Positions 2 through 23,327 of a DNA stretch of 24,867 nucleotides are shown here, piece after piece. Source of the stretch: a virus; IMG/VR virus record IMGVR_UViG_3300008267_000527, positions 1 to 24,867 of that record. The stretch is one strand, 5' to 3'. The position numbers and the translations under genes were made by a program. Numbering within the stretch: position 1 is the first letter of the stretch; each line of letters opens with the position of its first letter. The notes beneath the pieces are model-generated. The model ran no database searches. It saw nothing but the letters and a program-made list of their open reading frames with translations, and had not been told where the DNA came from.

Positions 2-3000
2 GGTGGAGGAACACCAGCTCCATCTAATTCGTATGTACAGTATAATGAAAATGGAGCATTTGGAGGTAGTGAGTATTTTAAGTACAATTACGAATCACAA
101 AGTTTACAGATAGGGCTAAACTCACCAACCGCCAGCTTTCTTTCTTTTTTATTTGGCTTAAACTCCCGTACGACCCCCGGTTTCTCAGGCCTGATTCAAA
201 ATATGAGCTATACTACTGGAGCAATTGCAATGGGCCACTATGTCACATCATCAAACCATTTTTCATTTGGAACTGGTTATCGTAGTGTATTGTATGGTGC
301 ATACTCAAATGCTAAAGGTTGGTCAGCAAGTATATACGACTTTGCAGCTGCATCTCATGCTGAAGGATATGCACCAACAGTATACGGAAGCTTTTCTCAT
401 GCTGAAGGCAACACTACAGCCATTGGTGGTAGAATTGGATTACCTCTGGTTTCTGCTACCCGCGGGACCGGTAGTATGAAAACAGGATATGGGGATATTA
501 CTAGTTATTTTACAAGTGGCAATCGATTGTTAGTTTACATAGCGACTAGCTCTTACAACGAAAACGATCGACTTGTAGCGTACAATTTACCAGTTGATAC
601 GAGCGTTACTATAACGAGCACTTCCTTTAATGGAAGTAGTACGTTAGTTATGGTGGATAATCCGGATTATTTATTTGGCACAGATGTAGATGGTGGTCAA
701 GGTCTCTATATCGTAGATATTGGACCTTATGAATGGAACAGCAGTGACACACCAGCAGCCATATTACCTGGCACTATTCCAAATATTGCATACAGTGAGA
801 ACCTACCCTTAGGACCAACATCTGCTCATGCAGAAGGACAACAGACAATAGCTTATGGAAACGCTTCTCACGTTGAAGGATATGTTACTACAACATTTGG
901 ACCACACTCTCATGCTGAGGGCTACGACACAACAGCATTTGGCCAATCTAGTCACGCAGAAGGATCAAGTGCCTACTCAATTGGTAACTATTCGCACGCT
1001 GAAGGTGCAGCAACAGAAGCGTGGGGAGCTAGTAGTCATACAGAGGGTGAGGAATCTCGTACTACAACATCTGCAATAGCAGCTCATGCCGAAGGATATT
1101 CAACAATAGCTGTAGGCCAGTATTCACACGCTGAAGGACAACAGACAAGAGCTTACGGAAATGCTTCTCACGTTGAAGGTAGTACTACATACACCGGAAC
1201 AATTAAAGCTTGGTACGCTGAGTCGGTAGTGGCTGGTGTACTCACTCTGAGTGCATCCTATAATGATGCATCTAACTTTTTTGCAATAGATGGTATTTTA
1301 TACCTTAATGATCAACCATATGATAATTTTTATTCAAGAGATACGTTTAAAATTAGTCAATCCTACTTCGACTCCCCAAACACAATAGTAGAGTTATACG
1401 ACACCCAAATAAACACCTCTACAGCACTTGTTGGCGATCTTTTGTACGGAATACTAAACTGGAACGGAGACCAAACAATACCAGGAACATACTCACATGC
1501 TGAAGGAATTAATAATGTAGCTATAGGAGAATATGCACATGCCGAAGGTCAACTTGCACAAGCCGGTGGGTTTGGATCACATGCCGAAGGGGCACAATCT
1601 TTAGCAGCTGGTAATTACTCGCATGCAGAAGGAACAAATGCGCAAGCCTTAGGAGATTATTCACATGCGGAAGGATACGATACAAGAGCACGGTCAGATT
1701 ATTCACATGCGGAAGGATTCTTAACAGAGGCAGGTATTACTAATGATGGTATTTCTGACGGAGCACACGCTGAAGGAGGTAACACAAAGGCTTTAGGCTC
1801 TCTTTCACATGCAGAAGGCACCTACACCACAGCACTAGGAAATGGATCACACGCAGAAGGTACATACACAACATCATCAGGAACGCACTCACATGCAGAA
1901 GGTAGTAGTTCCATAGCTTTTGGAACAGCATCACATGCAGGAGGTCTACACACAATAGCATCAGCAAGTTTTGCTACAACAATAGGCCAATACAACCTAC
2001 ACAACAACATCACTGCTCTATTCACAATCGGCGATGGAGCAAGTGATACAAATAGACACGACTTACTAAATGCTGGAATCGGATACATGCAGGTATCGGG
2101 ATCGGCTACCGTATCTAGCAGCTTAGAAGTAATTGGACTTTCAAGAGTTACTGGATCGCTAATAATTTCAAACAGCTTTGAGTTAGTTGGATCAGGACGT
2201 GTTACCGGTTCTTATACCATATCGAGTAGCTTAAACGTAATTGGAGTAAGCAACGTAACCGGTTCAAATAACATAACTGGGTCTTGGAATTTAGTAGGTA
2301 GTGGACAGACAACGGGATCGTTTAATATAACAGGCAGCAGTAGTTTAATAGGAGTTGGAATAGTGACCGGTTCACTACTAATAACCGGATCGTTAGTTGC
2401 AAATCGTGCAAACTTAACTGGATCACTAACCGGTTCATTTTTTGGCACAGGCTCTGGAGACTTCGATGGACAGTTTATTGGAAGAGTAACTGGGTCAATG
2501 ACCGGTTCATTCTTCGGCACAGGGTCAGGCAATTTTGATGGAAGGTTTATAGGACAGCTTACAGGATCTGTTACCGGTTCAACTACCGGTTCATTCCTTG
2601 GTACCGGTTCAGGAGACTTTGACGGCAGATTCATAGGATCTGTTACAGGGTCTACTACCGGTTCCTTTAGAGGTACTGGGTCTGGATTTTTTGATGGACT
2701 ATTTACCGGTTCAAATGCAAATGGTGTTTCATTCTATGGAACATCAAGTTGGGCGGTAACAGCATCATATGTGACTGGATCCATCTTTGATTCATCAAAC
2801 CCAGCCCTATCGGCATCATACGCTCTTAGTTCATCCTACAGTGTAACAAGTAGTTATGCAGAGAGCGCATCCTATGCCCTATCAAGCTCATATGCAGTAT
2901 CATCATCATACGCACTAACTAGCTCATACGCTGAGTCAGCTTCCTATGCTCTAAGTTCCTCGTATAGTGTAACAAGTAGTTATGCAGAAAGTGCCTCTTA

Positions 3001-3745
3001 TGCCTTAAGCTCATCTTATAGCGTTACAAGCAGTTACGCAGAATCAAGTTCATATGCACTGAGTTCCTCCTATAGTGTAACAAGCTCTTATAGCGTAAGT
3101 TCTAGTTACGCAGTGTCCTCTTCCTACGCACTTAGTGCATCATATGCCTTTAGTAGCTCTTATGCCACAACAGCATCATACATAGATCCTTTATTTATAT
3201 CTGCATCAGCAGCCTTCTACGGCTTTGGTTCAGGAGGCAGTCCTAGTAGTGGAGATATAACGGATGTTAACGAGGGACTAGGAATATCAGTTACCAATCC
3301 TAGTGGACCAGCTCCATCTGTAGCATTAAACACAGGGTCGGCTCACTTTATAGGTGGTGTATCTAGTTTAACAGGAAGTCTTCTTACGACCACTTCTTTT
3401 AATAGTTGGACAGGCTCAAACTCAAGTTTGTTTGCAGGAACTGCTTCTTACGTGACTGGTTCGATTTTCAGTGAAAGTAACGTTGCTCTAAGTGCATCAT
3501 ATGCTCTAAGTTCTTCTTATACTGTAACCAGTAGCTATGCCGAAAGTGCATCCTACGCATTGTCAAGTTCTTATAGCGTAACAAGCTCTTACGCACAATC
3601 AAGTTCATATGCTCTAAGTTCTTCTTATAGCGTAACTAGTAGCTATGCCGAGAGTTCATCGTACGCTCTAAGTTCTAGCTACGCAGTATCATCCTCCTAC
3701 GCATTTAGCGCATCATATGCACTAAGTGCGCATCATATGCACTAA
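2..3745 (+). CDS. Giant repetitive tail fibre, 5'-partial, prematurely terminated
   Basis: The frame is open from base 2, so the true start lies before the window; the ATG at 203 is internal. The residues before it (VQYNENGAFGG) match a motif common in phage fibres. Domains in order: about 22 SHAEG-type repeats (353-1945) resembling the YadA/Hep_Hag beta-roll head of trimeric adhesins, broken by two non-repeat inserts; a TGS-rich block (about 2090-2711); SYALSS-type hexapeptide repeats (2809-3180 and 3484-3745); and between them a GDITDVNEGLGIS module of the kind found in fibre shafts. The role is inferred as a long trimeric fibre for host recognition. The frame stops at TAA 3743-3745, inside the second copy of a 20-bp tandem duplication; without that duplication it would run on to 4485. 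Fibre nature is secure; the receptor is unknown. Confidence 0.85.
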   Translation, partial: GGGTPAPSNSYVQYNENGAFGGSEYFKYNYESQSLQIGLNSPTASFLSFLFGLNSRTTPGFSGLIQNMSYTTGAIAMGHYVTSSNHFSFGTGYRSVLYGAYSNAKGWSASIYDFAAASHAEGYAPTVYGSFSHAEGNTTAIGGRIGLPLVSATRGTGSMKTGYGDITSYFTSGNRLLVYIATSSYNENDRLVAYNLPVDTSVTITSTSFNGSSTLVMVDNPDYLFGTDVDGGQGLYIVDIGPYEWNSSDTPAAILPGTIPNIAYSENLPLGPTSAHAEGQQTIAYGNASHVEGYVTTTFGPHSHAEGYDTTAFGQSSHAEGSSAYSIGNYSHAEGAATEAWGASSHTEGEESRTTTSAIAAHAEGYSTIAVGQYSHAEGQQTRAYGNASHVEGSTTYTGTIKAWYAESVVAGVLTLSASYNDASNFFAIDGILYLNDQPYDNFYSRDTFKISQSYFDSPNTIVELYDTQINTSTALVGDLLYGILNWNGDQTIPGTYSHAEGINNVAIGEYAHAEGQLAQAGGFGSHAEGAQSLAAGNYSHAEGTNAQALGDYSHAEGYDTRARSDYSHAEGFLTEAGITNDGISDGAHAEGGNTKALGSLSHAEGTYTTALGNGSHAEGTYTTSSGTHSHAEGSSSIAFGTASHAGGLHTIASASFATTIGQYNLHNNITALFTIGDGASDTNRHDLLNAGIGYMQVSGSATVSSSLEVIGLSRVTGSLIISNSFELVGSGRVTGSYTISSSLNVIGVSNVTGSNNITGSWNLVGSGQTTGSFNITGSSSLIGVGIVTGSLLITGSLVANRANLTGSLTGSFFGTGSGDFDGQFIGRVTGSMTGSFFGTGSGNFDGRFIGQLTGSVTGSTTGSFLGTGSGDFDGRFIGSVTGSTTGSFRGTGSGFFDGLFTGSNANGVSFYGTSSWAVTASYVTGSIFDSSNPALSASYALSSSYSVTSSYAESASYALSSSYAVSSSYALTSSYAESASYALSSSYSVTSSYAESASYALSSSYSVTSSYAESSSYALSSSYSVTSSYSVSSSYAVSSSYALSASYAFSSSYATTASYIDPLFISASAAFYGFGSGGSPSSGDITDVNEGLGISVTNPSGPAPSVALNTGSAHFIGGVSSLTGSLLTTTSFNSWTGSNSSLFAGTASYVTGSIFSESNVALSASYALSSSYTVTSSYAESASYALSSSYSVTSSYAQSSSYALSSSYSVTSSYAESSSYALSSSYAVSSSYAFSASYALSAHHMH
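353..1945 (+). repeat. SHAEG beta-roll repeats in the tail fibre
   Basis: About 22 degenerate copies of a roughly 15-residue unit centred on S-H-A-E-G, with variants SHVEG, SHTEG, AHAEG and a final SHAGG. The following residues usually fit x-x-T-x-A-x-G, the pattern of YadA-like left-handed beta-roll heads. Two stretches without the motif (about 430-810 and 1180-1490) interrupt the array. Positions 833-879 and 1133-1179 are near-identical at DNA level, exactly 300 bp apart. Confidence 0.85.
2429..2711 (+). repeat. TGSFxGTGSGxFDG repeats in the tail fibre
   Basis: Four copies begin at 2429, 2501, 2585 and 2657 (spacings 72, 84 and 72 nt). Each encodes TGSF-x-GTGSG-x-FDG followed by FIG-x-x-TGS; the last copy is shortened. 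They precede the hexapeptide block and probably form part of the fibre shaft. The DNA copies differ at many third positions, so this is an old protein-level repeat. Confidence 0.8.
2809..3180 (+). repeat. SYALSS-type hexapeptide repeats, first block
   Basis: An 18-nt (six-residue) unit S-Y-[AS]-[LVE]-[ST]-[SA] is repeated about 20 times. Similar blocks recur at 3484-3745 and, in another frame, at 3748-3866. Codon choice varies between units, with changing serine and alanine codons, so the DNA repeat is imperfect although the peptide repeat is strict. Probably a rigid trimeric shaft. Confidence 0.85.
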
Positions 3746-4485: not shown

Positions 4486-4640
4486 TGCCTAAGTTTTTAT
4501 CCGAAATACAACTAGTAGCAACAGGCTCGATAGAGACTCCTGATCCAGGATTTGTTACACTATATGTAAACACAGATGGTAACCTATACGCTAAAACCTC
4601 TAATGGGAATCAAGTAAAGCTAAACATCAATAATGCATGA
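4485..4640 (+). CDS. 51-residue protein equal to the N-terminal domain of the next genes
   Basis: The start ATG (4485-4487) overlaps the fibre stop by one base (TAATG), and the TGA (4638-4640) overlaps the next start as ATGA, so it looks translationally coupled on both sides. The product starts MPKFLSEIQLVATGS and carries PDPGFVTLYVNTDGNLYAK. The pattern P-x-P-G-x-x-x-L-Y, then L-Y-x-K, is shared with the N-termini of both glycine-rich proteins that follow. It therefore resembles a stand-alone attachment or capping domain of the distal tail. No signal or membrane segment. Function unknown. Confidence 0.7.
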   Translation: MPKFLSEIQLVATGSIETPDPGFVTLYVNTDGNLYAKTSNGNQVKLNINNA

Positions 4641-5728
4641 GTAAGGTTTTAAAAAGTTTACAGTTTACAACCCAATCCTACACAGGAACTCCTAACCCAG
4701 GCACTATTGTTTTATTTGCTAGTGGTAGTGCCTTATATTTTGAAAACGCAGCTGGTACTACGCTTCCCTTAGAAGCAGCAGGTAGCAGAGGATACATTAG
4801 AGTGCTAGAGTACACAGGATCTAATCCAGGAGGAGGAACTTCGACGTACACTTGGAACACTCCCGTTAATATAAAGCACATTCAAGTAATTTGTGTTGGA
4901 GCAGGAGGGGGTGGAGGTAGTGGAGCTTTTTTAACAAGTGGAACTGGAACGAGAGCAACAGGAGGAGCAGGTGGAGGTGGTGGAGCTATTGCTTGGGGAT
5001 TTTTTGATAGGCAAAGTTTAATACAACCAAGCTATACGGTATCTGTAGGAGTAGGAGGAGCAGGAGGTGGTATTAGAACACATACCGCTGCAAACCAAAA
5101 CGGTATTGCAGGATCTGCAGGCGGCTACACCACTTTTGGTGGCACAATGGTCAGTGCTAGTGGTGGTAGTGGAGGTGGAGCTGGAGGTCTTGCAGGACTT
5201 ACTATAGTTGGAGGAGCAGGTGGATTATCAACTGCTTGTCTCCCAGGACCTGGATTTGCAATTAGAGGTGGCACAGGAGCAAATACTCCAGGAGGTGGTA
5301 CTAATGCAACAAATGCAGCTAATTTTGCTACTACTCCACTAACTCCAGTAGGAACAGCAGGAGGAGGAGCGGGTCCCAACCTAGCATTAAATGGTACTTT
5401 CGGATCAGGCTCTTTAGGAGCAGGAGGCTTTGAATGGAACACTCTCAACAGCAACAACAGTGTTAGTGGAAACTCAGGATCGAATGATCTAGTATCCTCT
5501 ATCGCACTACTACATTTTACAAGTAGTATTTATTCAACCTTAGTTGGTTTAGGTGGTGGTGGTAACGGAGTCCTAACACCAGGAGATGTCATTACTGATG
5601 GAGGTAATGGAGGTTTATATGGTGCCGGTGGTGGTGGTAGTGGATTTGCTAGAGGAAGTGGTCAATCCCCAACTTCACCTGGAGGGAGTGGATCCTCTGG
5701 TCTATGTATAGTAGTTGAGTATTACTAA
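4637..5728 (+). CDS. Glycine-rich distal tail protein / putative adhesin (copy 1)
   Basis: 363 residues. Residues 1-50 form the small domain shared with the two neighbours (PNPGTIVLFASGSALYF). Then comes a beta-strand lead-in (YTWNTPVNIKHIQVICVGAG) followed by many GGGGG-type runs, AGGAGG and GGTGAN segments, ending in a conserved hydrophobic tail (LCIVVEYY). Glycine-rich lattices of this sort occur in phage receptor-binding tips such as the gp38 adhesins of T4-like phages; that comparison is by composition only. Starts inside the stop of the preceding small gene (ATGA) and lies 14 bases before its paralogue. Likely a virion tip protein; receptor unknown. Confidence 0.65.
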   Translation: MSKVLKSLQFTTQSYTGTPNPGTIVLFASGSALYFENAAGTTLPLEAAGSRGYIRVLEYTGSNPGGGTSTYTWNTPVNIKHIQVICVGAGGGGGSGAFLTSGTGTRATGGAGGGGGAIAWGFFDRQSLIQPSYTVSVGVGGAGGGIRTHTAANQNGIAGSAGGYTTFGGTMVSASGGSGGGAGGLAGLTIVGGAGGLSTACLPGPGFAIRGGTGANTPGGGTNATNAANFATTPLTPVGTAGGGAGPNLALNGTFGSGSLGAGGFEWNTLNSNNSVSGNSGSNDLVSSIALLHFTSSIYSTLVGLGGGGNGVLTPGDVITDGGNGGLYGAGGGGSGFARGSGQSPTSPGGSGSSGLCIVVEYY

Positions 5729-5742: not shown

Positions 5743-6831
5743 ATGGCAAAGTTACTAAACACAGCATCACTAGTCACACAATCAGCACCCCCTACACCAA
5801 GTAGTGGGTATGGTACTTTGTACGCAAGTGGCAGCAGCCTCTTCTTCAAAAACAGCTCAGGTACAAATTTCAATCTATCGGTAATTGGTTCTTCTAGCTA
5901 CACACTATACACCACATCTGGAACTTACACCTACAACACAGGATCAGGCATACAGTACATAAGAGTAGTTTGTGTCGGTGGAGGTGGAGGTGGCGGCAGT
6001 GGCCGTACTATTTCAGCAGCTGCTGGAAACCGTAATGGTGGTGGTGGTGGAGCTGGTGGTAATGCTAATATAGGCTTTTTCTACTCTTCTTCTTTAACAA
6101 CAGGAAGCTATACGGTCACAGTAGGAGGATTTGGAGCTGGCGGTGCTAGACAGACTGGTACAAATAATAATGGAAATGCTGGACTAGCAGGATCCAATAG
6201 CACATTCGCATCTGGATCAGTAGTATTAGTTCGAGGAGTAGGAGGTCCTGGTGGTGGTGCAGGAAGTGCAACCAATACAGCAAACGGAGTTTTAGGAGGA
6301 GCTAATACGCTACAAACAACAGCAACAGTACCAAATCCATATCCACCATTTTACTTTTGTGGTATAGATGGAGGAAATACTGGGGCAGGAGCTGCAGGAG
6401 CCGCTCAAGGTAATGCTTTTGGGGGTGCTCGATGGTTAGGAGGTGGCGGTGGTGGTGGAGCAATCAACTCTGCCAACACCACAATACCTGGCGGCTCAGG
6501 ATCTGCTATATACAACTATAATACCCTAATACAATCAGGCTCTCCTGGAGCTGGTGGAAATCCTGGACAAAACGGAGCTCCTGTAATTGATATAGCTACT
6601 TTGCTATTTTTTAGCGGAAGTAGTTTAAATACAGGAATACAAATAGGTACCGGAGGACATGGTGGTTCGGGAGGAATACACTCTCCAGCATCATCTGGAG
6701 GGAATGGAGGCTCTGGCAGTAGAGCAGCAGGTGGTGGAGGTGGTGGAGGTTGTAATGGTGCAGTAGGTTTATCTAGTGGAGCCGGTGGACCAGGCGGAGA
6801 TGGTTTTGTAATAATTTTCGAATACTATTAA
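5743..6831 (+). CDS. Glycine-rich distal tail protein / putative adhesin (copy 2)
   Basis: 362 residues, a paralogue of the preceding gene: same length, same N-terminal domain (PPTPSSGYGTLYASGSSLFF), same strand lead-in (YIRVVCVGGGGGGGSG), glycine-rich body and an almost identical C-terminal strand (FVIIFEYY). The central glycine-rich part differs strongly between the copies, as expected if each tip recognises a different target or if one copy is diverging. The start lies after an A/T-rich leader (AATACTTATTTAAAG) with no Shine-Dalgarno sequence. Assignment as a fibre-tip protein is by context and composition. Confidence 0.65.
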   Translation: MAKLLNTASLVTQSAPPTPSSGYGTLYASGSSLFFKNSSGTNFNLSVIGSSSYTLYTTSGTYTYNTGSGIQYIRVVCVGGGGGGGSGRTISAAAGNRNGGGGGAGGNANIGFFYSSSLTTGSYTVTVGGFGAGGARQTGTNNNGNAGLAGSNSTFASGSVVLVRGVGGPGGGAGSATNTANGVLGGANTLQTTATVPNPYPPFYFCGIDGGNTGAGAAGAAQGNAFGGARWLGGGGGGGAINSANTTIPGGSGSAIYNYNTLIQSGSPGAGGNPGQNGAPVIDIATLLFFSGSSLNTGIQIGTGGHGGSGGIHSPASSGGNGGSGSRAAGGGGGGGCNGAVGLSSGAGGPGGDGFVIIFEYY

Positions 6832-7430: not shown

Positions 7431-9899
7431 ATGGCCGAAAAAATAGTTAGTCCCGGTGTCTTTACGAACGAAAGAGATCTATCGTTCCTACCGACTGGTA
7501 TTGCATCTATTGGTGCAGTGGTAATGGGTCCAACCACAAAAGGACCTGCTTTCGTTCCTACTGTGATTACCAACTTTGAAGATTTCAAAGCTAAATTTGG
7601 TGATCTGAACGAATCAACCTACATTCCTTACACAGTAAAAAGCTACTTGCGTAATGCTAGCAACGTAATCGTTGTTCGCGTTGTACAAGAGGGTGGTTAC
7701 TCAACAACTCCAATCCACGTTATTTGGACCGGTCAGTCTAGTGTTGGCAGCCCGACTAGATTGGTAGGTACAATTCACCCAAGCTTAAAGAGCAGTACTT
7801 CCTTAGCTGGTGGTGGTGCTAACACTGCTGACTTTTCAAAGACAGTACTTTCGCCAGCAACAGTATCGGTAACCGGTTCTTTGGCTTTTGTTCTTAGTGG
7901 TTCTGCAGACACTGGTGGATCAGGAAAACTTAGCGGATCAGCAAATCCAAGTTCACCAATCTCCTTTGAAAAGGTATTTGGTACAACAGTTTACTCTGAT
8001 AAGACTGGTTTCTTGTACACTTGGAATAAGGACTTTTTGGGTACTGTAACAGGATTGAGTGGTTCAATATCTTTTGTATCCACAAGCACTGCCTTAGACC
8101 TCTCAGGCACAACTTACGGTGCAGCTCAAAAAGGCGCAACTCCTTACATTACAACCCAGAAGCTCGACGGTCAAGTACCACAAAAACTTTTCCGCTTCTT
8201 AGCAAATGGTGAAGGTCAGGATACCAATACTGCCTATAAGATTAGTGTTATTAACACTTTGTTGCCTGGTGATGACCCTGCAAGTGCCTACGGTACCTTT
8301 ACAGTATTAGTTCGTGCATACGACGACACTGATCAAAGACCTAATGTATTAGAAACTTTCGTAGGTTGTAACCTCGATCCAGATTCAGTAAACTACATTG
8401 CTAGAAAAATTGGTGACCGATATGTTCAGATTAACTCCGATAACACTATCACCTACGCAGGAAACTACGACAATAGAAGTAAGTATGTTTATGTTGAGGT
8501 AACTGACGACGTTGCTAACAAAGGTATTCCGCCAACCTACAGACCATATGGATTTGAGCCACTCATCCAAACTGTTAGTGGATCAGCCTCAATGCCTTTC
8601 TATAATCTGATTGAAAATGCAACTTACACCAACCAACTTACAGGTTCAAGTGCCCAAACCATAATCAACGGATTCTACAACGCAAAAGCCTACTACGGCT
8701 GGAACTTTGCTGCATATGATAATGCAAACTATCTGAAGCCAGTTCCTTCACTCGCAGTAGCTCCAACAGACGCAAGAGGCTTAAGCGCTTACTTTAACCT
8801 TGACTACTGCTTCATCCACCCAAGTGCATCTAAAAAAGACAGCAGATCAACAATGACTGCAGGGTCTTCTATATCTGGATCTACTCTGAAAGGTGTGGAT
8901 ATTTCTAACGTAGCTAAGTTCAACGTACCATTCCAAGGTGGATTTGAGGGTATGGATATCGCTAAGAAGAAGTTAGTTGGCTCAAGCATGACTACTACCA
9001 ACGTAAGTGGTTTCGACTGTAGCACTTCAACTGCTAGCGGATCGCAAGCTTACTTTAAAGCTCTTGGAATCATTGGTAACGGTGAAGAGTTTGATATCAA
9101 CTTGATTGTGACTCCTGGTCCAAATGCTGCACAACACCCAGCTGTAATTCAAAAAGCAATTGAAGTTGCTGAAGACAGAGGTGATACATTTGTAATTGTA
9201 GATCCAGTTAAGCAAGGTTCACAGATTGGCGATGCAGTTGCTGCAATCACTGATGCAAGCTTGGATAGTAACTACGCAGCTGTATACTGGCCTTGGGTTA
9301 AGATCATCGACATCACTCGTAACAAACCGGTATGGGTACCACCAAGTGCAGTACTTCCAGGTGTGTTAGCTTACAACGATAGCGTATCATTTGAGTGGTT
9401 TGCTCCTGCAGGTCTTAACAGAGGTGGAATTTCTGAAGCTGTTGACGTTGAATTGAAGCTTACCTTCTCACAAAGAGACTTGTTGTATGAAAACAGAATC
9501 AACCCACTTGCAACATTCCCTAACCAAGGTGTATGTGTATGGGGTCAAAAGACTCTGCAATCTAAGCCAAGCGCTCTTGACAGAATCAATGTACGTCGTC
9601 TGATGATTGCATTGAAGAAGTATATTGCAAGTGCTACTCGCTACTTGGTATTCGAAAACAATACTACAGAAACTCGTCAGAGATTCTTGAACATTGTTAA
9701 CCCTTACTTGGAGAGAGTTAAGTCACGTCAAGGATTATACGCCTTCCGTGTAGTAATGGACGAAACAAACAATACCCCAGATGTAATTGATAGAAACCAA
9801 ATGTACGGTCAGATCTTCTTGCAACCAGCAAAATCTTCTGAATTCATCATTTTGGATTTCAACATTTTACCAACTGGTGCATCGTTTGAAAACGCATAA
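7431..9899 (+). CDS. Contractile tail sheath protein (gp18-like)
   Basis: 822 residues. The start (IVSPGVFTNERDLSFLP) and the following GPTTKGPAFVPTVITNFEDF are the usual opening of myovirus sheath proteins. The C-terminal third has the conserved sheath fold signals: FEWFAPAGLNRGGI, RDLLYENRINPLATFPNQGV, VWGQKTL, INVRRLMIALKK and the final strand FIILDFNILPTGASF. The subunits form the contractile tube around the tail tube. T4 gp18 is about 660 residues, so this protein is longer, with extra Ser/Gly-rich sequence at about residues 110-230 that is probably a surface domain. The tube gene follows, as in T4. Confidence 0.95.
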   Translation: MAEKIVSPGVFTNERDLSFLPTGIASIGAVVMGPTTKGPAFVPTVITNFEDFKAKFGDLNESTYIPYTVKSYLRNASNVIVVRVVQEGGYSTTPIHVIWTGQSSVGSPTRLVGTIHPSLKSSTSLAGGGANTADFSKTVLSPATVSVTGSLAFVLSGSADTGGSGKLSGSANPSSPISFEKVFGTTVYSDKTGFLYTWNKDFLGTVTGLSGSISFVSTSTALDLSGTTYGAAQKGATPYITTQKLDGQVPQKLFRFLANGEGQDTNTAYKISVINTLLPGDDPASAYGTFTVLVRAYDDTDQRPNVLETFVGCNLDPDSVNYIARKIGDRYVQINSDNTITYAGNYDNRSKYVYVEVTDDVANKGIPPTYRPYGFEPLIQTVSGSASMPFYNLIENATYTNQLTGSSAQTIINGFYNAKAYYGWNFAAYDNANYLKPVPSLAVAPTDARGLSAYFNLDYCFIHPSASKKDSRSTMTAGSSISGSTLKGVDISNVAKFNVPFQGGFEGMDIAKKKLVGSSMTTTNVSGFDCSTSTASGSQAYFKALGIIGNGEEFDINLIVTPGPNAAQHPAVIQKAIEVAEDRGDTFVIVDPVKQGSQIGDAVAAITDASLDSNYAAVYWPWVKIIDITRNKPVWVPPSAVLPGVLAYNDSVSFEWFAPAGLNRGGISEAVDVELKLTFSQRDLLYENRINPLATFPNQGVCVWGQKTLQSKPSALDRINVRRLMIALKKYIASATRYLVFENNTTETRQRFLNIVNPYLERVKSRQGLYAFRVVMDETNNTPDVIDRNQMYGQIFLQPAKSSEFIILDFNILPTGASFENA

Positions 9900-9928: not shown

Positions 9929-10417
9929 ATGGCAAATTTAATAGAAAACGATAAAATGTTCTACACGCCCTTCGAACCGAAGGTGCAGAATCGTTTCATC
10001 ATGCAACTTGATGGTGTACCATCCTTCATCATGAAGAAGGTATCACGTCCTCAGATTGACTGTGGTGAAGTTGTATTGGACCACATCAACTTGGTTCGTA
10101 AGCTGAAAGGAAAGTGTAAGTGGGGTGATATCACCATGACACTGTACGATCCGATTGTACCATCTGGTGCCCAAGCTGTAATGGAGTGGGTGAGAACAGC
10201 ACACGAATCTGTAACTGGTCGTGATGGCTACGCAGACTTCTACAAAAAAGATTTTGATATCTTTGTGTTGGGTCCTGTTGGTGATAAGATTGAAAACTGG
10301 AAAGTAAAGGGAGCTTATATCAAGTCTGCTCAGTTTGGCGACTTAGATTGGGCTACTGAAACACAGGTTGAAATCCAATTGACCTTAGCATTAGACTATT
10401 GTGTATTGGAGTACTAA
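9929..10417 (+). CDS. Tail tube protein (gp19-like)
   Basis: 162 residues, the size of T4 gp19 (about 163). The opening FYTPFEPKVQNRFIMQLDG, then GVPSFIMKKVSRP, the central KGKCKWGDITMTLYDPI and the C-terminal VEIQLTLALDYCVLEY fit the tube-protein family, whose hexamer rings stack into the inner tail tube. It directly follows the sheath gene, as expected. The leader is A/T-rich (AATACTTATAATAAAATAA) with no Shine-Dalgarno sequence. A strong hairpin terminator follows, so sheath and tube probably end one transcript. Confidence 0.93.
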   Translation: MANLIENDKMFYTPFEPKVQNRFIMQLDGVPSFIMKKVSRPQIDCGEVVLDHINLVRKLKGKCKWGDITMTLYDPIVPSGAQAVMEWVRTAHESVTGRDGYADFYKKDFDIFVLGPVGDKIENWKVKGAYIKSAQFGDLDWATETQVEIQLTLALDYCVLEY

Positions 10418-10442: not shown

Positions 10443-10477
10443 GTAAAGCCAGCAGAAATGTTGGCTTTACTTTTTAT
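10443..10477 (+). terminator. Rho-independent terminator after the tube gene
   Basis: An 11-bp stem (10443-10453 with 10460-10470; one G-U pair), a six-base loop and then TTTTTAT. It follows the tail tube stop by 26 bases. Confidence 0.85.
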
Positions 10478-10517: not shown

Positions 10518-11381
10518 ATGAGCGAAACAAAGCTGCCTAAAGCAGGCGAAAGACCGGTTATGTCGGATGAAGATTTGAAGTCCCAATTTGCCAAAGACTA
10601 TGTGACAAACATAGAAGTTGATAAGTACGACGGACCTACTGAAATAATCGAACTACCATCAAAGGGATACTTCTATCCAGATGGACATCCACTAGCAGGT
10701 GGAACAATCGAAATCAAGTACATGACAGCTAAAGAGGAAGACATTCTCAGCTCAGCTACTTTAATTAAGCAAGGTGTTGTTATTGACAAGCTTCTGCAAT
10801 CTCTTATTGTAACAAAAGTTAAGTATGACGATTTGTTGCTGATGGATAAGAATGCAATCTTTATTGCAGCTCGCGTGTTAGCGTATGGTAATGCTTACCA
10901 AGTAGAGATTACATGCCCAGCCTGTGAAAGCAAGCAAACAGACTATGTTGATCTTTCTTCTTTTGAAGAAAAGACACTAGACTGGGCTCAGTTTACAAAA
11001 GGCAAGACTACCTTTGACTTTACACTTCCAATGACAAAAAAGACTTTGACTTTGAAGTTTTTAACTCATGGAGATGATAAAACAATCAATGAAAATTTAA
11101 AGTCTTCTAAGAAGATGTCAAAGCTTACAGGAGTGGATCCTGAATTGACAACAAGACTAAGACAGATGATTGTTGCAATTGATGGAAACACAGACCCAGC
11201 CGAGATCTTTAAGTTTTCTCAGAATATGCTTTCACGCGATAGTCTAGCTCTTAGAGAGTACTTGAAAAAAATAACCCCAGAAGTTGACACTACATTTTCA
11301 TATGAGTGTGAAAACTGCGGACATACTAACCATAAGATGGCAGTGCCCATTACGGTAAGCTTTTTTTGGCCTGGGGTCTGA
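10518..11381 (+). CDS. Baseplate hub assembly protein / tail chaperone (gp26-like)
   Basis: 287 residues. ELPSKGYFYPDGHPL and the following GTIEIKYMTAKEEDIL are hallmark sequences of the T4 gp26-type baseplate family. Two CxxC pairs (Cys133/136 in CPAC, Cys264/267 in CENC) probably bind one zinc ion. The C-terminus VPITVSFFWPGV runs into TGA. Immediately beyond, in the +1 frame, is a well-formed gp51-like segment with no start of its own (see 11377). The most likely reading is that a fraction of ribosomes shift near GGGG 11373-11376 or the T7 run 11361-11367 to give a fusion of about 348 residues. Flanked by terminators on both sides, so probably its own transcription unit. Confidence 0.8.
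   Translation: MSETKLPKAGERPVMSDEDLKSQFAKDYVTNIEVDKYDGPTEIIELPSKGYFYPDGHPLAGGTIEIKYMTAKEEDILSSATLIKQGVVIDKLLQSLIVTKVKYDDLLLMDKNAIFIAARVLAYGNAYQVEITCPACESKQTDYVDLSSFEEKTLDWAQFTKGKTTFDFTLPMTKKTLTLKFLTHGDDKTINENLKSSKKMSKLTGVDPELTTRLRQMIVAIDGNTDPAEIFKFSQNMLSRDSLALREYLKKITPEVDTTFSYECENCGHTNHKMAVPITVSFFWPGV
11359..11381 (+). other. Probable programmed frameshift window
   Basis: Both frames are open only between TAA 11356-11358 (frame of the gp51-like part) and TGA 11379-11381 (frame of gp26). Inside lie seven T (11361-11367) and GGGG (11373-11376). A +1 slip of the glycine tRNA on GGG-G joins FFWPG to SDYRPLLYDQIF. A slip on the T run would give FFGLG instead. A -2 slip reaches the same frame. Confidence 0.6.
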
Positions 11382-11565
11382 TTATCGGCCCCTACTCTAC
11401 GACCAGATCTTTGATCTGATGTATTATGGAAAAATGGGATTTACATACACAGAGCTGTATTATATGCCAGTGTTTCAGAGAAGATACTACTACGATAAGT
11501 TGAGTCAAACTCTGAAGAAAGAACATGAAGCGCAAGAACAAGCTATAAAGAAGGGAAGAAGATAA
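11377..11565 (+). CDS. gp51-like C-terminal extension reached by frameshift
   Basis: About 62 residues beginning SDYRPLLYDQIFDLMYYG and ending in a basic, helical tail (KKEHEAQEQAIKKGRR). The core YYGKMGFTYTELYYMPVFQR, of pattern QIF-x-L-x-YYG-x-x-GFTY-x-E-x-Y-x-MPV, is one I associate with short gp51-type baseplate assembly proteins. It has no ATG before 11419, which would remove the first conserved segment, and no ribosome-binding signal. It is therefore probably translated as a fusion with the upstream protein. The stop codon forms part of the terminator stem. A sequencing indel in the homopolymer is the main alternative. Confidence 0.65.
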   Translation, partial: SDYRPLLYDQIFDLMYYGKMGFTYTELYYMPVFQRRYYYDKLSQTLKKEHEAQEQAIKKGRR

Positions 11566-11586
11566 GCCAGCAACAGCTGGCTTTTC
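11564..11586 (+). terminator. Rho-independent terminator after the gp26/gp51 unit
   Basis: An 8-bp perfect stem (11564-11571 with 11576-11583), loop AACA, and a T run (11582-11585). It overlaps the stop codon of the gp51-like frame. Confidence 0.75.
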
Positions 11587-11618: not shown

Positions 11619-11921
11619 ATGACTAAGCAAGATTTTCATAAATTAGTAAAAGAAGTTTATCACGAAGTTCTAGAGGAGGAAAAGCTTAAAGAAGGACTGC
11701 TTTCTTGGGCTGGAGGAGTTGCTGATAACATTGTCTATAGTGTTTTAAATAACTATAAAAATATCAGACAAACTGACATCTTTAAAGATCCAAAAATTAG
11801 AGGTTTAGCTAAGGACTTAAAGATCAGCCAAAAAGAACTAGAACAACGTGTAAGCGATCTCTTACAAAGAGACAAACGCTTTCTCAAAGCATTGGCAACC
11901 CAAAGAGCTAAATACGTATAA
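11619..11921 (+). CDS. Small helical protein of unknown function before the tape measure
   Basis: 100 residues, starting MTKQDFHKLVKEVYHEVLEE. Mostly charged helix-forming sequence with one short apolar stretch (LLSWAGGVADNIVYSVLNN). Its last base overlaps the tape measure start (TAATG), so the two are probably translated together. Proteins coded just before a tape measure often help its assembly, and that is the best guess here; the sequence itself gives no family. No Shine-Dalgarno sequence. Confidence 0.6.
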   Translation: MTKQDFHKLVKEVYHEVLEEEKLKEGLLSWAGGVADNIVYSVLNNYKNIRQTDIFKDPKIRGLAKDLKISQKELEQRVSDLLQRDKRFLKALATQRAKYV

Positions 11922-14900
11922 TGGCTACACCTGAAGGTAAGAAACCCAATAAGCAGCAAATAAACAATGCTGGTAATGAGGTTGGTTTAGACCTAGCCAA
12001 TGCTATTGGTAAGGCAATAAACCGAACTCTTAGCAACTACGATTTTAGTCCGTTAGGAAAGAACATTACAAAAACCATCAACTCAGAAGTATCTAAGATT
12101 AACCCAGTTAAGCTGCAAGCAAAGCTAACTGAGATGGATACTTCAATCATCGACACACTGCCGCAAGCTCAAATTAAAGGTACACTAGCAATAGACCCAG
12201 CTGAAATACAGAGTCAACTAGAGAAAACACCATCGGTTAAGCTAAAAGCAACTATAGGAGAAGTACAACAACCAAAAGAAGATTTGTTTGGTCCAGTCGA
12301 AGTCAATCCTAAGATTGGTAAACTTGATTTTGACGCAGATCGCTTAATAGACGTAGTACAAAAGTCTTTTATGAGACTCAACACTACCTTGAGTTTAATA
12401 GGAGCAACTCTTAGAAAGGAAATAAGTTCCAGCCCATTTGATCAAATGGCTGATGGAGTTGGAGAAGTTGGTACTAAATCAAATAAAACTGGTAGCGAGT
12501 TAAAAAAGATAGGAGAGCAGCTTACAAAGCTTACAGGCCTATTAACAAAAGCTTTTGATAGTAAAATTATAGATGGAGCTAGTGTCAGTGTAAGTAGGAT
12601 GCGTCGTGAAACAACAGCATTATCTGATAACTTTAATGAGGCTGAAGCAAACGCAACATCTCTTTTGAGTGCAATTGAAGTTGGTAACAGTGAGCTTGCT
12701 CTTGCTAAAAGGTATGGATCAGATCAAGCTAAGATACAAGCTTCTATAGCTGGATTAAAAAAAGAAGAGCTTATAAAGCTTGCTGAGACTTTAAGCATAC
12801 AGAAAGCCCAGGAACTTAGCGCCAAACAATTAAAAGAATCGATATCTCGACAGCTGATAGAACTAGATAATCAAAAAGAGATAAACAGAGTACTAGTCGA
12901 GTCGTACGAAAGCCAAGGAAATACGGTAGGGGAGATTGTACGTAATACAACCGCATTGCTACAAAATCAGACCAATACCAAAAAAGTATCTCAAATGCTT
13001 GTTGCAGATGCTGATAGGTATGCAAACTGGATGGGACAGAGCGGAGCCTTAACAGCTGAAATAGCACAGCTGTACGGTGATTTAACAAAAGCAACAAAGC
13101 AGGAACTAGTTATTGCAGCGCAAAAATTAAAAATAGCAGATGCTGAAAAGTTGAGTAAGCAAGAGTTAGTGGGTTTGGTTAGTGATGCAACTATAAAATT
13201 AGCTGAGCAGAGTAAAATTGCTGATAACATTGTTAGCTCAATCAACGATCAGGACAAAGCTATGAAGCAAGTCCTTGCTGACATTAAGCTTAAGAATGTT
13301 ATAATGCAAACCGGTCTAACTGGTCAGTATGCAGAGACAGCTCGACTTTTAGAATTGCAAAAAGAGCAAGGAGTTTTAAGCAATCAAGATTACATTAAAG
13401 CTTTAGAGAGATTAAAAGCAGAGCATCACATATATGAAGAAAAAGCTAAACAGTTAGAGCTAACAGAAAGCTTAGCTAATTGGCAACTCCAGATGAATGG
13501 AGAGCTTGAAGAGTATGAGATGGGTTGGGAGAAGATAAAGAGCAAAATAAAGGCCATAATAACAGATCCAAAACTTGCAAAAACAGTATTTGCAGCGGAA
13601 GGAATTAAAACCGCAATTGAAAGTGTTAAAAAGTTTGGTGAAGGATTTGAAAAGATGAAAGAAAAAGGGTTGTCAGCAGGTCAAGCTGCAACAGCTCAGA
13701 TGAAAACAATTAGCACTATGTCTGTTCTTGGGCTATCAGATACCCAAGGAGTGATGGAGCAAGTTATAGAATCTTACGGTAATGTAAACGCTCTCAGCAG
13801 AACTCAAGTAGATAATATAGGTCAGATGGCCCATCATATGGGTATAACCGGTCAAGAGGCAATGCAAGTAAACGCAACATTGTCTCAAATGACTGGTGAA
13901 ACTACTGAGAGTGCCATAGAAGCTATGCACTTTACAGAAAACCTTGCAAAAGCAAATGGAGTTGCTCCAGGCAAAGTTATGAAAGACATAGCCAAAAACT
14001 CAGCAGCTGTTGCCTTATATAGTAAGGATGGTGCAAAAGGCTTTGGTAAAGCAGCAATTGAACTCCATAAAATGGGAGTGGAAATTGGTACAGCAGCTAA
14101 GATGGCTGATGGCTTACTTGATTTTGAAAACAGCATCAATAAGCAAATGGAAGCTTCGGTTCTGTTGGGTAGAGAGATAAATTTGGACAAAGCAAGGGAG
14201 ATGGCTCTCAACGGTGACTTAGCTGGAGCAGCCAAAGAAACCTTAGCCAATATAGGTGGTGCAGCTGAGTTTACAAAAATGAATGTCGTTCAAAAAAGAG
14301 CTTTAGCTGAGGCAGCTGGAATGACAGTTGAAGAATTGCAAAAAGCTCTTGACGCTGAAGAAGAGCAGCAGAAATATCATGGAGAGGAAGCTGGGTTCTG
14401 GATGAATACAATTGGCTATGTAACAGAGTATGGTACAAAGTTAGGTGGATTCTTAAAAGAGCATGGAGTGTTGCTGCTGTCTGGATTAAACACACTAGCA
14501 CAACAAGAAACACGACAGTTCATAATAAACGGACTGCAGAAGGGATATAACATACTAAAGGGTATAGGTAATGGTATTTTGCTGGCAGGTAAGGCAATAT
14601 TTGATTCTGAGGCCAGAGAAAAGGTTATTCTATGGACAAAAGAAAAAGCTCAATGGGCTGCGCAAAAGGCTCATATTGGCTGGTTAAAACTTAACGCTTT
14701 TTTTGGTTCAAAAAAAGCTAAAGAGAAGTTAGCTAATATGGCTAAGGATAAGCTTGCTGGTGGAGTAACAGATAAAGCTAAGGACATGGCCACAGGTAAA
14801 GTAAAGGATCTCGCAGGCGATAAAACAAAAGACTTAGCAGGCAAAGCAACGGAAGGTGCAGATAAACTTGGTGAAAGCGGAGATAAGGTAGGAAAGAAGG

Positions 14901-16411
14901 GAATGGCAGCAAGCTTCAAAGATAACATGAAAAGCATTGCTGAAGGATTTAAAGAAATGGGACAAGGTGGTGTACTTAAAGGCATATTCAATACAATGCT
15001 TGCAGGACCGGCCTTAGTCATTGCGCTACCAGCAATACCATTCCTATTGTTTATGGGTAAGGTAAGCCTTAAACAACTTGAACCAAACTTTAAAAATTTA
15101 GGAGAAGGGCTTGAAAAAATGAGCAAAACCTTCACAGGGTCTCTTGCACTTGGGGTGTTTGCTGTAGCTGCAATACCATCTGTAGCTTCAATTCCATTCC
15201 TATTATTTATGGGATTAGTTCCATTGAAACAGCTACAAGCTAATTTTGAAGGTCTAGGAAAAGGACTTCAATCAATGAGTAAAAGCTTTATAGGTTCACT
15301 TGCATTAGGTTTGTTTGCTATAGCAGGAGCAGCAGCAGTCGCAACCTTACCGTTTTTGCTTGGAATATCTTTGTTAGGTAAGCCCGCAGAAATTGGACTA
15401 AAAGCCTTAGGTATGGGATTAGCAGCCTTTGGTAATCCAGCAACAGCCTTATTTGTTTTGATTGGTATAGGATTGCTAGCAGCATTAGGAGTAGCTATGA
15501 TACCATTTGCAGCAGCATTAGCTATAGCTACGCCAGCAATTAAGGCATTTGGTGATATTATTATAGGAGTTTTTCAACAAATACCTCCAATCATAGCAGC
15601 AGTTGCTGCAGGATTCGTAACCATATTTAGTGCACTAGCAGCTAATTGGCAAATACTAATTCCAGTAGGAATTGGTTTAGGAGCCGTAGCAATTGGACTT
15701 GGTGCATTAGGAGGAGCAGCTTTGTTTGCTTTTCCTGGACTAATACTAGCAAGCATTGGCTTAATGGCGATGATGCCCGGATTAATTGCTCTAAATGCAA
15801 TTGCACAAACAGACGCATTGCCTAAATTAGCACAGTCGTTTGCAATGCTAGCAGCACTTGGACCTGGATTACTGGTATTTAGTATAAGCTTAGGTGCACT
15901 AGGAGCAGCAGGTCTACTTGCATTCCCAGGATTGATATTGGCAGGTGCAGGATTATTAACTATGGTACCTGGCTTAATGGCAGTAGGTGCAATTGCACAA
16001 ACAGGATCAATCACAGCATTATCACAGTCTCTTCTGGGATTAGGATCAGCAGCAGGTGGATTAGCGCTTGTAAGTGCCTCATTGTTTGGCATAGCAGGAG
16101 GGTTGGGTGCAATAGCTCTTGCAGGTTTTGCAGCAATGCCTATTATAGGGGCTTTGGCAGGCTTAGCAACAGTAGCGCCAATGTTAGCTGGATTAGGAAG
16201 CTTATTTGGAGGAGGTGGAGGTGGAGAACAGCAACCGGCTGCTCAAACTAAGACAACAGCAGCACCTGCAGAAGATGGTAAGATGGACATACTTATAAGT
16301 GAAATTAGGTCTCTAAAAGAGATCATGTCTAAAGGTGGTGTAATAAACATGGACGGTAAGAAGGTTGGTGATGTGGTTAGATTAGCAATGAATACTAGTG
16401 GTGTTAGATAA
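11921..16411 (+). CDS. Tail tape measure protein
   Basis: 1496 residues, the longest gene in the window. Residues about 1-560 are helical and charged, with coiled-coil character (for example QALEELKAL-like heptads in 200-560). The centre (about 600-850) has the repeated alanine/glycine/lysine helices usual in tape measures. The region 1040-1440 is strongly hydrophobic with internal repeats and could form membrane-inserting segments. The end, INMDGKKVGDVV, is a common C-terminus for this family. It sets tail length inside the tube and is ejected with the DNA. T4 gp29 has about 590 residues, so a much longer tail is predicted. ATG overlaps the previous stop; the next gene overlaps its stop. Confidence 0.88.
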   Translation: MATPEGKKPNKQQINNAGNEVGLDLANAIGKAINRTLSNYDFSPLGKNITKTINSEVSKINPVKLQAKLTEMDTSIIDTLPQAQIKGTLAIDPAEIQSQLEKTPSVKLKATIGEVQQPKEDLFGPVEVNPKIGKLDFDADRLIDVVQKSFMRLNTTLSLIGATLRKEISSSPFDQMADGVGEVGTKSNKTGSELKKIGEQLTKLTGLLTKAFDSKIIDGASVSVSRMRRETTALSDNFNEAEANATSLLSAIEVGNSELALAKRYGSDQAKIQASIAGLKKEELIKLAETLSIQKAQELSAKQLKESISRQLIELDNQKEINRVLVESYESQGNTVGEIVRNTTALLQNQTNTKKVSQMLVADADRYANWMGQSGALTAEIAQLYGDLTKATKQELVIAAQKLKIADAEKLSKQELVGLVSDATIKLAEQSKIADNIVSSINDQDKAMKQVLADIKLKNVIMQTGLTGQYAETARLLELQKEQGVLSNQDYIKALERLKAEHHIYEEKAKQLELTESLANWQLQMNGELEEYEMGWEKIKSKIKAIITDPKLAKTVFAAEGIKTAIESVKKFGEGFEKMKEKGLSAGQAATAQMKTISTMSVLGLSDTQGVMEQVIESYGNVNALSRTQVDNIGQMAHHMGITGQEAMQVNATLSQMTGETTESAIEAMHFTENLAKANGVAPGKVMKDIAKNSAAVALYSKDGAKGFGKAAIELHKMGVEIGTAAKMADGLLDFENSINKQMEASVLLGREINLDKAREMALNGDLAGAAKETLANIGGAAEFTKMNVVQKRALAEAAGMTVEELQKALDAEEEQQKYHGEEAGFWMNTIGYVTEYGTKLGGFLKEHGVLLLSGLNTLAQQETRQFIINGLQKGYNILKGIGNGILLAGKAIFDSEAREKVILWTKEKAQWAAQKAHIGWLKLNAFFGSKKAKEKLANMAKDKLAGGVTDKAKDMATGKVKDLAGDKTKDLAGKATEGADKLGESGDKVGKKGMAASFKDNMKSIAEGFKEMGQGGVLKGIFNTMLAGPALVIALPAIPFLLFMGKVSLKQLEPNFKNLGEGLEKMSKTFTGSLALGVFAVAAIPSVASIPFLLFMGLVPLKQLQANFEGLGKGLQSMSKSFIGSLALGLFAIAGAAAVATLPFLLGISLLGKPAEIGLKALGMGLAAFGNPATALFVLIGIGLLAALGVAMIPFAAALAIATPAIKAFGDIIIGVFQQIPPIIAAVAAGFVTIFSALAANWQILIPVGIGLGAVAIGLGALGGAALFAFPGLILASIGLMAMMPGLIALNAIAQTDALPKLAQSFAMLAALGPGLLVFSISLGALGAAGLLAFPGLILAGAGLLTMVPGLMAVGAIAQTGSITALSQSLLGLGSAAGGLALVSASLFGIAGGLGAIALAGFAAMPIIGALAGLATVAPMLAGLGSLFGGGGGGEQQPAAQTKTTAAPAEDGKMDILISEIRSLKEIMSKGGVINMDGKKVGDVVRLAMNTSGVR
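15038..15658 (+). repeat. Four hydrophobic repeats of about 52 residues in the tape measure
   Basis: The motif PFLLFMG begins at 15038 and 15194, PFLLGIS at 15350 and PFAAALA at 15503: spacings 156, 156 and 153 nt. Copies 1 and 2 share LKQL, NF, LG-x-GL, MSK-x-F and GSLALG; copies 3 and 4 are more diverged. Each unit alternates one hydrophobic helix with one amphipathic helix. Confidence 0.75.
15700..16090 (+). repeat. Two hydrophobic repeats of about 64 residues in the tape measure
   Basis: The motif FPGLILA is centred at 15734 and again at 15926, 192 nt apart. Both copies continue with a PGL(I/M)A helix and an AIAQT turn, then a Ser-Leu helix. A third, weak copy may start near 16139. Confidence 0.65.
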
Positions 16412-21823: not shown

Positions 21824-23113
21824 GTGATAGTAGACTCATTCCAACAATACCAAAGCTTTATTAAAGACATAGAAGGTAGGCATATCATATGCCATGCCAT
21901 TGTTCTATATCCGCAAAAGCACCTAGTAGACAATACAATTATAGGTTGGTATGTTCGTGTCCTGGATGGCGAAGAGTTCACAGTTCTCATTGAACACCCA
22001 GAAGCAGTGTATAAGGTGGATTGTTATGAGTTCTTTCATAGAGCGGAGAGATGCTACGTAGTTGACTACGACATTCTAACCTACGCTGGGTACAAGCTAC
22101 TCCCAAACATGGAAGATGGAGTGATCAACAGCTATCTCAGCTACGGAACCATTCCAGAGCAAGAATACAATCCTCTTCTTAACTTTTATAGAAAGAGAGT
22201 AGGACAGGCCTGTTCCAACTTCTTAATAGACTTAACCAAACTACAACAATACTATCGTGATATTGTTGATAGACTCCCCATAGATAGAGAACTAATGAAT
22301 CCATTCTACAATACGGTTAAGGAAGTGTATCATACCATCGAGAAGAGTGGTATTGCTGTAGACGAGCAGCTCTTTAGAAATGCTTTTCCAAATAGCGGAT
22401 ATCTTAAAGATGGAAAAGCGTATACAAAGTACAACCTCTACACCTCAACAGGAAGACCAAGTAATAGGTTTGCTGGAGTAAACTATGCAGCCCTAAATAA
22501 AGAGGATGGTACTCGAGAATGCTTCATGTCACGTTATCCTAATGGAAAGTTGATTGAAATAGACTTTACATCCTATCACCCACGAATCTTAGCATCGTTA
22601 ACAAAGTATAGCATCTCTGATCAAGAAAATATATACGAACACTTAGCGAAGCAGTACTTTGGGGATAACCCAACTCAAGAGCAAGTGGCGCAATCAAAGG
22701 AGATGACGTTTAGACAGCTTTATGGAGGAATCAATAGACAGTACCTTCACATTGACTACTTCGCTAGAATACAGATGCTTACTGATACACTGTGGCAAAT
22801 ATATTCAAAACAAGGCTTCATCAACAGCTTAATATCTAAACGCAAGATATCAGGTATCGAAGATGCGACACCAACTAAAGTACTAAACTACTTTATACAG
22901 CTGCAGGAAACAGAACAAAACGTACAACTGCTGTCACAAATATTTGCTAAGCTACCTACCGATATACTGCCTATTTTATACACTTACGATAGTGTCTTGT
23001 TTGACGTTCCATGTGAAAAAGAACAAGCACTTTATGGCATATTACAGGCAACAATCCCTAGTAAATTTCCCTTTAAGATCAAAACTGGAGATAATTATAG
23101 ACATATAGACTAG
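21824..23113 (+). CDS. Short family A DNA polymerase
   Basis: 429 residues from a GTG start; the ATG two bases earlier meets a stop at once. Recognisable polymerase parts: YTSTGRPSNRFAGVNY (about 206-221), motif A IEIDFTSYHPRILA with Asp247, motif B KEMTFRQLYGG with Lys292, Phe296 and Tyr300 at the standard 4-residue spacing, and motif C LYTYDSVLFDV with Asp389. The usual motif B arginine four residues before Lys292 is Val, and the classic HDE is YDS. Residues 1-158 show no intact 3'-5' exonuclease motifs. T4-like phages normally use a family B enzyme; RM378 has a family A polymerase with separate exonuclease, from memory. It would be the replicative polymerase if no other is coded. Confidence 0.75.
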   Translation: MIVDSFQQYQSFIKDIEGRHIICHAIVLYPQKHLVDNTIIGWYVRVLDGEEFTVLIEHPEAVYKVDCYEFFHRAERCYVVDYDILTYAGYKLLPNMEDGVINSYLSYGTIPEQEYNPLLNFYRKRVGQACSNFLIDLTKLQQYYRDIVDRLPIDRELMNPFYNTVKEVYHTIEKSGIAVDEQLFRNAFPNSGYLKDGKAYTKYNLYTSTGRPSNRFAGVNYAALNKEDGTRECFMSRYPNGKLIEIDFTSYHPRILASLTKYSISDQENIYEHLAKQYFGDNPTQEQVAQSKEMTFRQLYGGINRQYLHIDYFARIQMLTDTLWQIYSKQGFINSLISKRKISGIEDATPTKVLNYFIQLQETEQNVQLLSQIFAKLPTDILPILYTYDSVLFDVPCEKEQALYGILQATIPSKFPFKIKTGDNYRHID

Positions 23114-23117
23114 CCTT

Positions 23118-23327
23118 ATGAAAAAGAAAGATATTGACTATTATACTATAAACTACGGATCTTTTAAAAAAATGCTCCAAGAGTTGGAGAGCGCTGGATC
23201 AGCTGCAGATAACACAAAAGCCGCACAAGTCCAAGAGCAGATAGCAAAATTAGATAGTCAAATAGCAAAACTACAACTTCAAAAGGCTGGCTTACAAAAG
23301 CAATTAGACGCAATCGAGAAGAAGTAA
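23118..23327 (+). CDS. Small coiled-coil protein of unknown function
   Basis: 69 residues, ATG four bases after the polymerase stop. Residues 38-69 (VQEQIAKLDSQIAKLQLQKA and beyond) are a clear leucine/isoleucine heptad coiled coil; the first 25 residues are basic and aromatic. Coupling to the polymerase gene suggests a replication accessory role, but nothing in the sequence proves it. Confidence 0.6.
   Translation: MKKKDIDYYTINYGSFKKMLQELESAGSAADNTKAAQVQEQIAKLDSQIAKLQLQKAGLQKQLDAIEKK

Follow-up and report, generated by a model that had tools for sequence, protein, structure and literature searches.

Locus layout

The window, by which we mean the whole 24.9-kb stretch of DNA analysed here, is a virus fragment with a T4-like contractile-tail module; its source is metagenomic, without an isolate. 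The tail genes follow the order sheath, tube, putative chaperone locus and tape measure, and the chaperone locus thus lies between the tube and tape measure genes. The features considered here are the following.

7431–9899: sheath gene, given for context
9929–10417, plus strand: tail tube protein (PF06841, E = 1.5e-6; phrog_4542, E = 4e-26)
10518–11381, plus strand: gp26-like ORF in the 0 frame, putative short form of the tail assembly chaperone (PF12322, phrog_150 and an AF2 model)
11356–11358, plus strand: TAA, the stop that bounds the +1 frame upstream
11359–11565, plus strand: +1 frame with a conserved C-terminal tail (no start codon; conserved in 211 distinct junctions; third-position bias)
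11361–11372, plus strand: proposed slip site TTT_TTT_TGG_CCT (identical in 161 of 199 scored +1 loci)
11373–11392, plus strand: putative stimulatory hairpin GGGGTC-TGATTATC-GGCCCC (−11.0 kcal/mol), directly 3′ of the slip site
11379–11381, plus strand: TGA, the 0-frame stop, 18 nt past the slip-site start and inside the hairpin loop
11562–11583, plus strand: inverted repeat AAGCCAGC-AACA-GCTGGCTT (pattern scan), overlapping the tail-frame stop and extending past it
11921–16411, plus strand: probable tape measure protein of 1,496 aa, by position and length

The gp26-like ORF begins at an ATG at 10518, ends at the TGA at 11379–11381 and encodes 287 amino acids with the C terminus SFFWPGV. It matches PF12322 (T4_baseplate; E = 8e-15, 55.5 bits compared with a Pfam gathering score of 24.5) and phrog_150 (E = 5e-17). 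The +1 frame encodes FFGLGSDYRPLLYDQIF...GFTYTELYYMPV... and closes at the TAA at 11563–11565. Both frames are open together only over 11359–11381, an overlap of 23 nt that contains a run of seven T (T7, 11361–11367) and a GGGG (11373–11376). A search of the second frame of the window for ATG, GTG or TTG 5′ of the conserved part found none. Between the gp26-like ORF and the probable tape measure gene lies a 100-aa ORF. No convincing Pfam or PHROG match was found for the tape measure candidate; in Flavobacterium phage immuto, the protein at the equivalent position is annotated as a tail tape measure protein.

The inverted repeat at 11562–11583 is probably the end of a transcription unit or an mRNA stabilizer, and the intergenic region between the tube and chaperone genes contains a strong terminator-like stem (10443–10470; 12 pairs and a T run). 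Given these two elements, the chaperone gene may be transcribed as a separate unit. Elsewhere in the window, a long ORF (2–3745) resembles a fibrous adhesin in having many SHAEG-type repeats and, after them, SSSYA(V/L)TSSYA repeats, and two adjacent glycine-rich paralogous ORFs (4637–5728 and 5743–6831) are possibly fibre-tip adhesins. Replication genes come directly after the tail module (21824–24865); judging by motif, they presumably include a short family-A polymerase-like ORF and a RecA/UvsX-like ORF. Eight related loci (L318–L325) occur in MAGs that are labelled mostly Bacteroidota (Flavobacteriales, Winogradskyella, Saprospiraceae and Sphingobacteriales), which suggests Bacteroidota hosts; the window phage is probably a T4-like phage of Bacteroidota.

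Comparison of the reading frames across homologues

Homologues were gathered from IMG/VR, phage records and GTDB genomes. The tail was in the +1 frame in 163 and in the −1 frame in 3 of the first 166 distinct homologous junctions; after more sampling the counts were 200 and 11 of 211, and the tail was out of frame with the gp26-like ORF in every one. Differences between relatives in the tail fall on codon positions 1, 2 and 3 of the +1 frame in proportions of 23.5, 13 and 63.5%, and the share at third positions indicates that the tail evolves as a translated protein. No ATG, GTG or TTG for a separate tail gene is present in 86 of 165 loci, the window among them; many relatives have possible tail-frame start codons upstream. 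On these comparative grounds, the break in frame is neither a chance event nor a sequencing error.

We consider it very probable that a programmed +1 ribosomal frameshift makes a tail assembly chaperone pair of the G/GT type from this locus. The original prediction, which came from the window alone, had joined the two frames by such a shift; the +1 relation in 200 of 211 distinct junctions bears it out. The coordinates that it gave for the gp26-like end (FFWPGV-TGA, 11381), the second frame (to TAA, 11565) and their overlap (11359–11381) are exact, its claim that the second frame has no start codon that would keep the conserved part whole agrees with our search, and its placing of the unit just upstream of the tape measure gene, as a T4-like counterpart of the G/GT system, holds.

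Conservation of the proposed slip site

The sequence TTTTTTTGGCCT is found at the site in 109 of 130 distinct loci; the corresponding count for the larger set is 161 of 199 scored +1 loci. Across 1.25 Mb of fetched loci there are 185 copies, all of them at the junction and none on the opposite strand. All 199 scored +1 loci have a UUU in frame with U or C as the next base (UUU_Y), at one of the two FF codons, and this is kept in the variants TTT_CTT_TGG, TTC_TTT_TGG, GCT_TTT_TGG and TTT_CTA_TTC. The tails of Bacillus SP-15 (TTT_TTT_CAC) and Streptococcus GXN1 (TTC_TTT_CGT) are likewise +1; scans for further relatives of these two found almost none. At the junction of Streptococcus phage vB_SagM-GXN1 (L005, near 4715) the site reads TTC_TTT_CGT_C, which we take to resemble the influenza PA-X +1 motif.

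Synonymous sites are frozen within the near-invariant TTTTTTTGGCCT in a non-redundant set of 81 loci, with junction identity below 80%. In this set TTT accounts for 78/79 and 75/75 of the codons at the two Phe positions (153/154 in total; background 76%) and CCT for 78/81 of those at the Pro position (background 30%). None of the 199 scored +1 loci has a U directly 5′ of the T7 site, and an Asn, Asp or Ser (AGY) codon at this position ends in C in 73 of 73 cases, although the same genes favour T by 69–79%. An exception is L239, a +1 locus outside the 199 scored (variant FFWV), in which a U is present 5′ of the site. Because a U at this position would create the canonical −1 heptamer U_UUU_UUU, we infer from its absence that +1 loci are under selection against slippage in the −1 direction.

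The window differs from both canonical −1 sites and RF2-type +1 sites. With respect to the XXXYYYZ pattern of the former, its tail is in +1 and the −1 heptamer is avoided; with respect to the latter, its A-site codon is UGG and not a stop, and an SD-like tetramer upstream, which is enriched elsewhere in the set (42% compared with 16%), is absent. As a point against the proposed shift, UGG is not known to be read slowly here.

The tail frame would also be reached by a −2 slip on the T7 run, giving FFFGL in place of FFGL and the junction peptide MAVPITVSFFFGLGSDYR. Slips of −2 are known in some viruses, and T7 lets UUU re-pair two bases back in most loci. Such re-pairing is impossible, however, in L246 (TTC_TTT_TGG) and L302 (GCT_TTT_TGG), and the same reasoning excludes it in GXN1 (TTC_TTT_CGT) and L004 (TTT_CTA_TTC), whereas a +1 movement from UUU to UUY works in 199/199 scored loci. 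The site variants therefore disfavour a −2 slip, and we regard it as unlikely.

Loci with the tail in the −1 frame

The −1 tails belong to 11 distinct loci (L289, L305, L313, L334, L336–L339, L341, L342 and L344). In 11/11, an in-frame A_AAT_TTC, a canonical −1 heptamer, lies exactly 5′ of the site and the T7 run is lost; A_AAT_TTC occurs in 0/162 +1 loci checked. A phylogenetic tree that includes three of the 11 groups these in a single clade (support 100/100), and the base of the tree is without resolution. As SP-15 and GXN1 branch outside this clade and are +1, the −1 state was probably derived within a +1 lineage, and the 11 loci constitute a candidate switch of recoding direction.

These observations also bear on whether the tail could be a small gene in its own right, with a start of its own or translated by termination–reinitiation. 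A TAATG, in which a tail-frame ATG overlaps the gp26 stop, is present in Cygsa01 (L155) and L007 and makes termination–reinitiation possible in those other lineages, many cyanophages have an ATG 5 nt past the stop, and annotators split the genes in Microcystis phage Mel-JY01 and immuto. Against this, 86 of the 165 window-lineage loci have no ATG, GTG or TTG, the window has none 5′ of the conserved part, and a separate gene leaves unexplained the frozen T7GGCCT, the avoided U and the heptamer that accompanies the −1 frame. We judge a separate gene to be quite improbable, and favour a +1 shift at the T7 site.

A downstream hairpin in a subgroup of loci

The 0-frame stop follows the start of the slip site at a distance of 18 nt in 105/162 loci and 24 nt in 47/162. 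A hairpin of −9 kcal/mol or lower directly past the site is found in 65% of the 18-nt class compared with 0.8% of control windows, and in 15% of the 24-nt class compared with 0.1%. Over 56 aligned loci, 72.5% of cells in the hairpin pair, compared with 64.8% after shuffling (0/500 as high), and sliding the alignment gives at most 53.7%. Two-sided changes are seen in 6 of the 8 pairs and covariation is 0.298 compared with 0.209 in shuffled data (0/500), although these counts are inflated by relatedness. The hairpin is missing in many loci, mostly those with the 0-frame stop 24 nt downstream, and an Rfam search returned nothing significant. Given the many loci without it and the effect of relatedness on the counts, the hairpin, which lies just 3′ of the site, probably stimulates the shift in a subgroup that includes the window and is not a universal stimulator.

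The same evidence addresses slippage of RNA polymerase on T7, which would yield a mixed population of mRNAs. Most loci do have a homopolymer of seven, but the frame is kept where the run is broken, as in TTTCTTTGG (12 loci), TTCTTTTGG, TTTCTTCTC, TTTCTATTC and GXN1 (TTCTTTCGT). Transcriptional slippage is thus disfavoured by the site variants; the covarying hairpin and the avoided −1 heptamer implicate the ribosome, and we consider slippage of the polymerase very improbable.

Relationship to T4 gp26 and gp51 and to cyanophages

Both T4 gp26 and gp51 match PF12322 and phrog_150, gp26 over positions 14–235 and gp51 over positions 13–280 of 282, and family profiles align (E = 4e-21). Single-sequence profile comparisons with the T4 proteins were too weak; family profiles performed better. 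The matches and the profile alignment indicate that gp51 is the core plus a C-terminal tail, and on this basis gp26 and gp51 are paralogues, with gp26 matching the short form and gp51 the long form. In T4 they are two separate, divergently transcribed genes, whereas in the window both forms would come from one gene by frameshifting. RB43-type phages (L329 and L330, 1001–2295) have a gp51 gene followed directly by a gp26-like gene in the same orientation, unlike the divergent pair of T4, and this order suggests a tandem duplication.

T4-like cyanophages (Kyanoviridae) have the same core and tail, with the junction at the same FF residues. Their tail is a short frame after gp26 and lies in −1 in 71/72 loci, and T_TTT_TTC is found at the FF codons in nearly all of the 72; the canonical −1 heptamer U_UUU_UUC thus takes the place of the proposed +1 site UUU_U of the window. 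The −1 fused gp26–gp51 product of cyanophages matches T4 gp51 (E = 8e-20), and the fused product of the window aligns along its length with that of cyanophages (E = 1e-11). Tail comparisons gave E = 1.6e-6 between the window and cyanophages and E = 8e-13 between cyanophages and the gp51 tail; directly, the window tail matches the gp51 tail weakly (E = 0.008) and phrog_634 with E = 0.04. By way of the cyanophage tail, these alignments identify the window tail as homologous to the C-terminal extension of gp51, and they indicate that the site lies at the homologous place and that the recoding differs. The gp51-like label given originally to the second frame fits this extension and not the whole of gp51, as gp26 and gp51 share the core. 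Synechococcus phage S-SCSM1 (L151, 3660–3880) has T_TTT_TTC, yet its gp51-like tail lies in +1 and has an ATG of its own; the cause is either an indel or a true conversion to a separate gene.

The fused products of the window and of cyanophages have an FFxL motif in common, which bears on where the slip occurs. The original prediction had placed it at GGG_G (11373–11376), with the junction FFWPG-SDYRPL; the product of such a slip would read ...SFFWPGSDYR... rather than ...SFFGLGSDYR.... In the window and its close relatives, re-pairing on the GGGG would be perfect, but of the two runs proposed for alignment across homologues it is T7 that is kept (161 of 199 scored +1 loci), as UUU_U or more generally UUU_Y, and near-universal; the GGGG run is not conserved, with GGG at codon 5 in only 28/81 non-redundant loci, and a slip there would forgo the shared FFxL. 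We hold it to be highly improbable and place the predicted +1 slip at the T7 site. The probability of an assembly or sequencing error, in which a miscounted T or G (six T, for example) hides one continuous frame, is negligible: homopolymers are error-prone, but the comparative data rule this out, as 161 distinct junctions have this T7 site and so does Mel-JY01, an isolate with a complete genome.

T4 gp26 and gp51 were reportedly identified as tail assembly chaperones by Vladimirov and colleagues in 2022. As cited from that paper in two later ones, some T4-like phages have one short and one long chaperone gene (PMC10274946) and T4-like chaperone genes carry poly-T −1 signals (PMC12846349). The tail chaperones of Vandenendeviridae and Andersonviridae (phage Adele; PMC12846349) shift −1 at GTTTTT, unlike the +1 shift proposed for the window. 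T4 gp51 is described as needed for assembly and absent from the final particle (PMC3004832).

Proposed mechanism and function

The proposal is built on sequence: the frame relation, the missing start, the conservation of the site, the avoidance of the −1 heptamer and the core-plus-tail homology. From these we infer that both proteins are made, their relative abundance, the choice of +1 over −2, the role of the hairpin and the function. Most ribosomes would translate the gp26-like ORF as far as its TGA, yielding the 287-aa short form. On some, peptidyl-tRNA-Phe at UUU 11364–11366 in the P site, with UGG in the A site, would slip +1 onto the overlapping UUU, and GGC and CUG would be the next codons. 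These ribosomes would make a 348-aa long form with the conserved gp51-like C-terminal tail, the predicted fused junction FF-GLGSDYRPL and the +1 junction peptide MAVPITVSFFGLGSDYR. By analogy with lambda gpG and gpGT, coating of the tape measure protein would fall to the short form, and recruitment of tube subunits to the tail of the long form.

An AF2 model of the short form only has a pLDDT of 89.7. Its top PDB match, in both programs used, is the HK97 tail assembly chaperone 2ob9, a weak match (Z 4.8, 76 residues; Foldseek E 1.9), and sequence searches found no significant match to a solved structure of the family or to a solved chaperone. Gene position, the short and long architecture and the weak 2ob9 match together support a G/GT-like role by analogy.

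Other +1 sites include CUU_UGA of RF2 and UUU_CGU of influenza PA-X. Further cases given in PMC5009743 are Listeria phage PSA and archaeal HSTV-2. At these sites the tRNA in the P site moves +1 to a cognate codon that overlaps the first, as proposed for the window; compared with these known sites, the window has no A-site stop codon and no SD-like stimulator, and its subgroup has a hairpin. Lambda gpG/gpGT have in common with the window the position between tube and tape measure genes, a short product and a longer, frameshifted one that carries a small C-terminal domain, and a site located where the first ORF ends. The lambda slip is −1 (PMC5009743), whereas that proposed for the window is +1 at UUU_U in a protein of the PF12322 family.

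Discussion

PMC5009743, a standard review, presents G–T frameshifting as widely conserved in long-tailed phages, with T4 excepted, and T4-like phages are reported to use separate genes instead (the 2022 paper as cited in PMC10274946). In our set, many phages of the T4 gp26/gp51 family appear to shift +1, and one clade among them −1, at the same place. The +1 and −1 loci support gp26 and gp51 as a chaperone pair and amount to a natural experiment in which the direction of a recoding site has changed. Annotations of phages such as immuto, Mel-JY01 and SP-15 probably misrepresent the long form by listing an orphan small ORF. Frameshift-made tail assembly chaperones are known; what is new, as read from these sequences, is a +1 version and an unusual record of mode switching at one site. 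We lean towards a view in which one family has used three interchangeable routes at one codon position: a +1 shift at UUU_Y; a −1 heptamer, in cyanophages and in what is probably a derived clade within the +1 lineage that gained A_AAU_UUC as its tail changed frame; and gene duplication in T4. UUU_UUU_UGG_CCU with its hairpin would then represent a new class of bacterial +1 signal, selected against −1 slippage.
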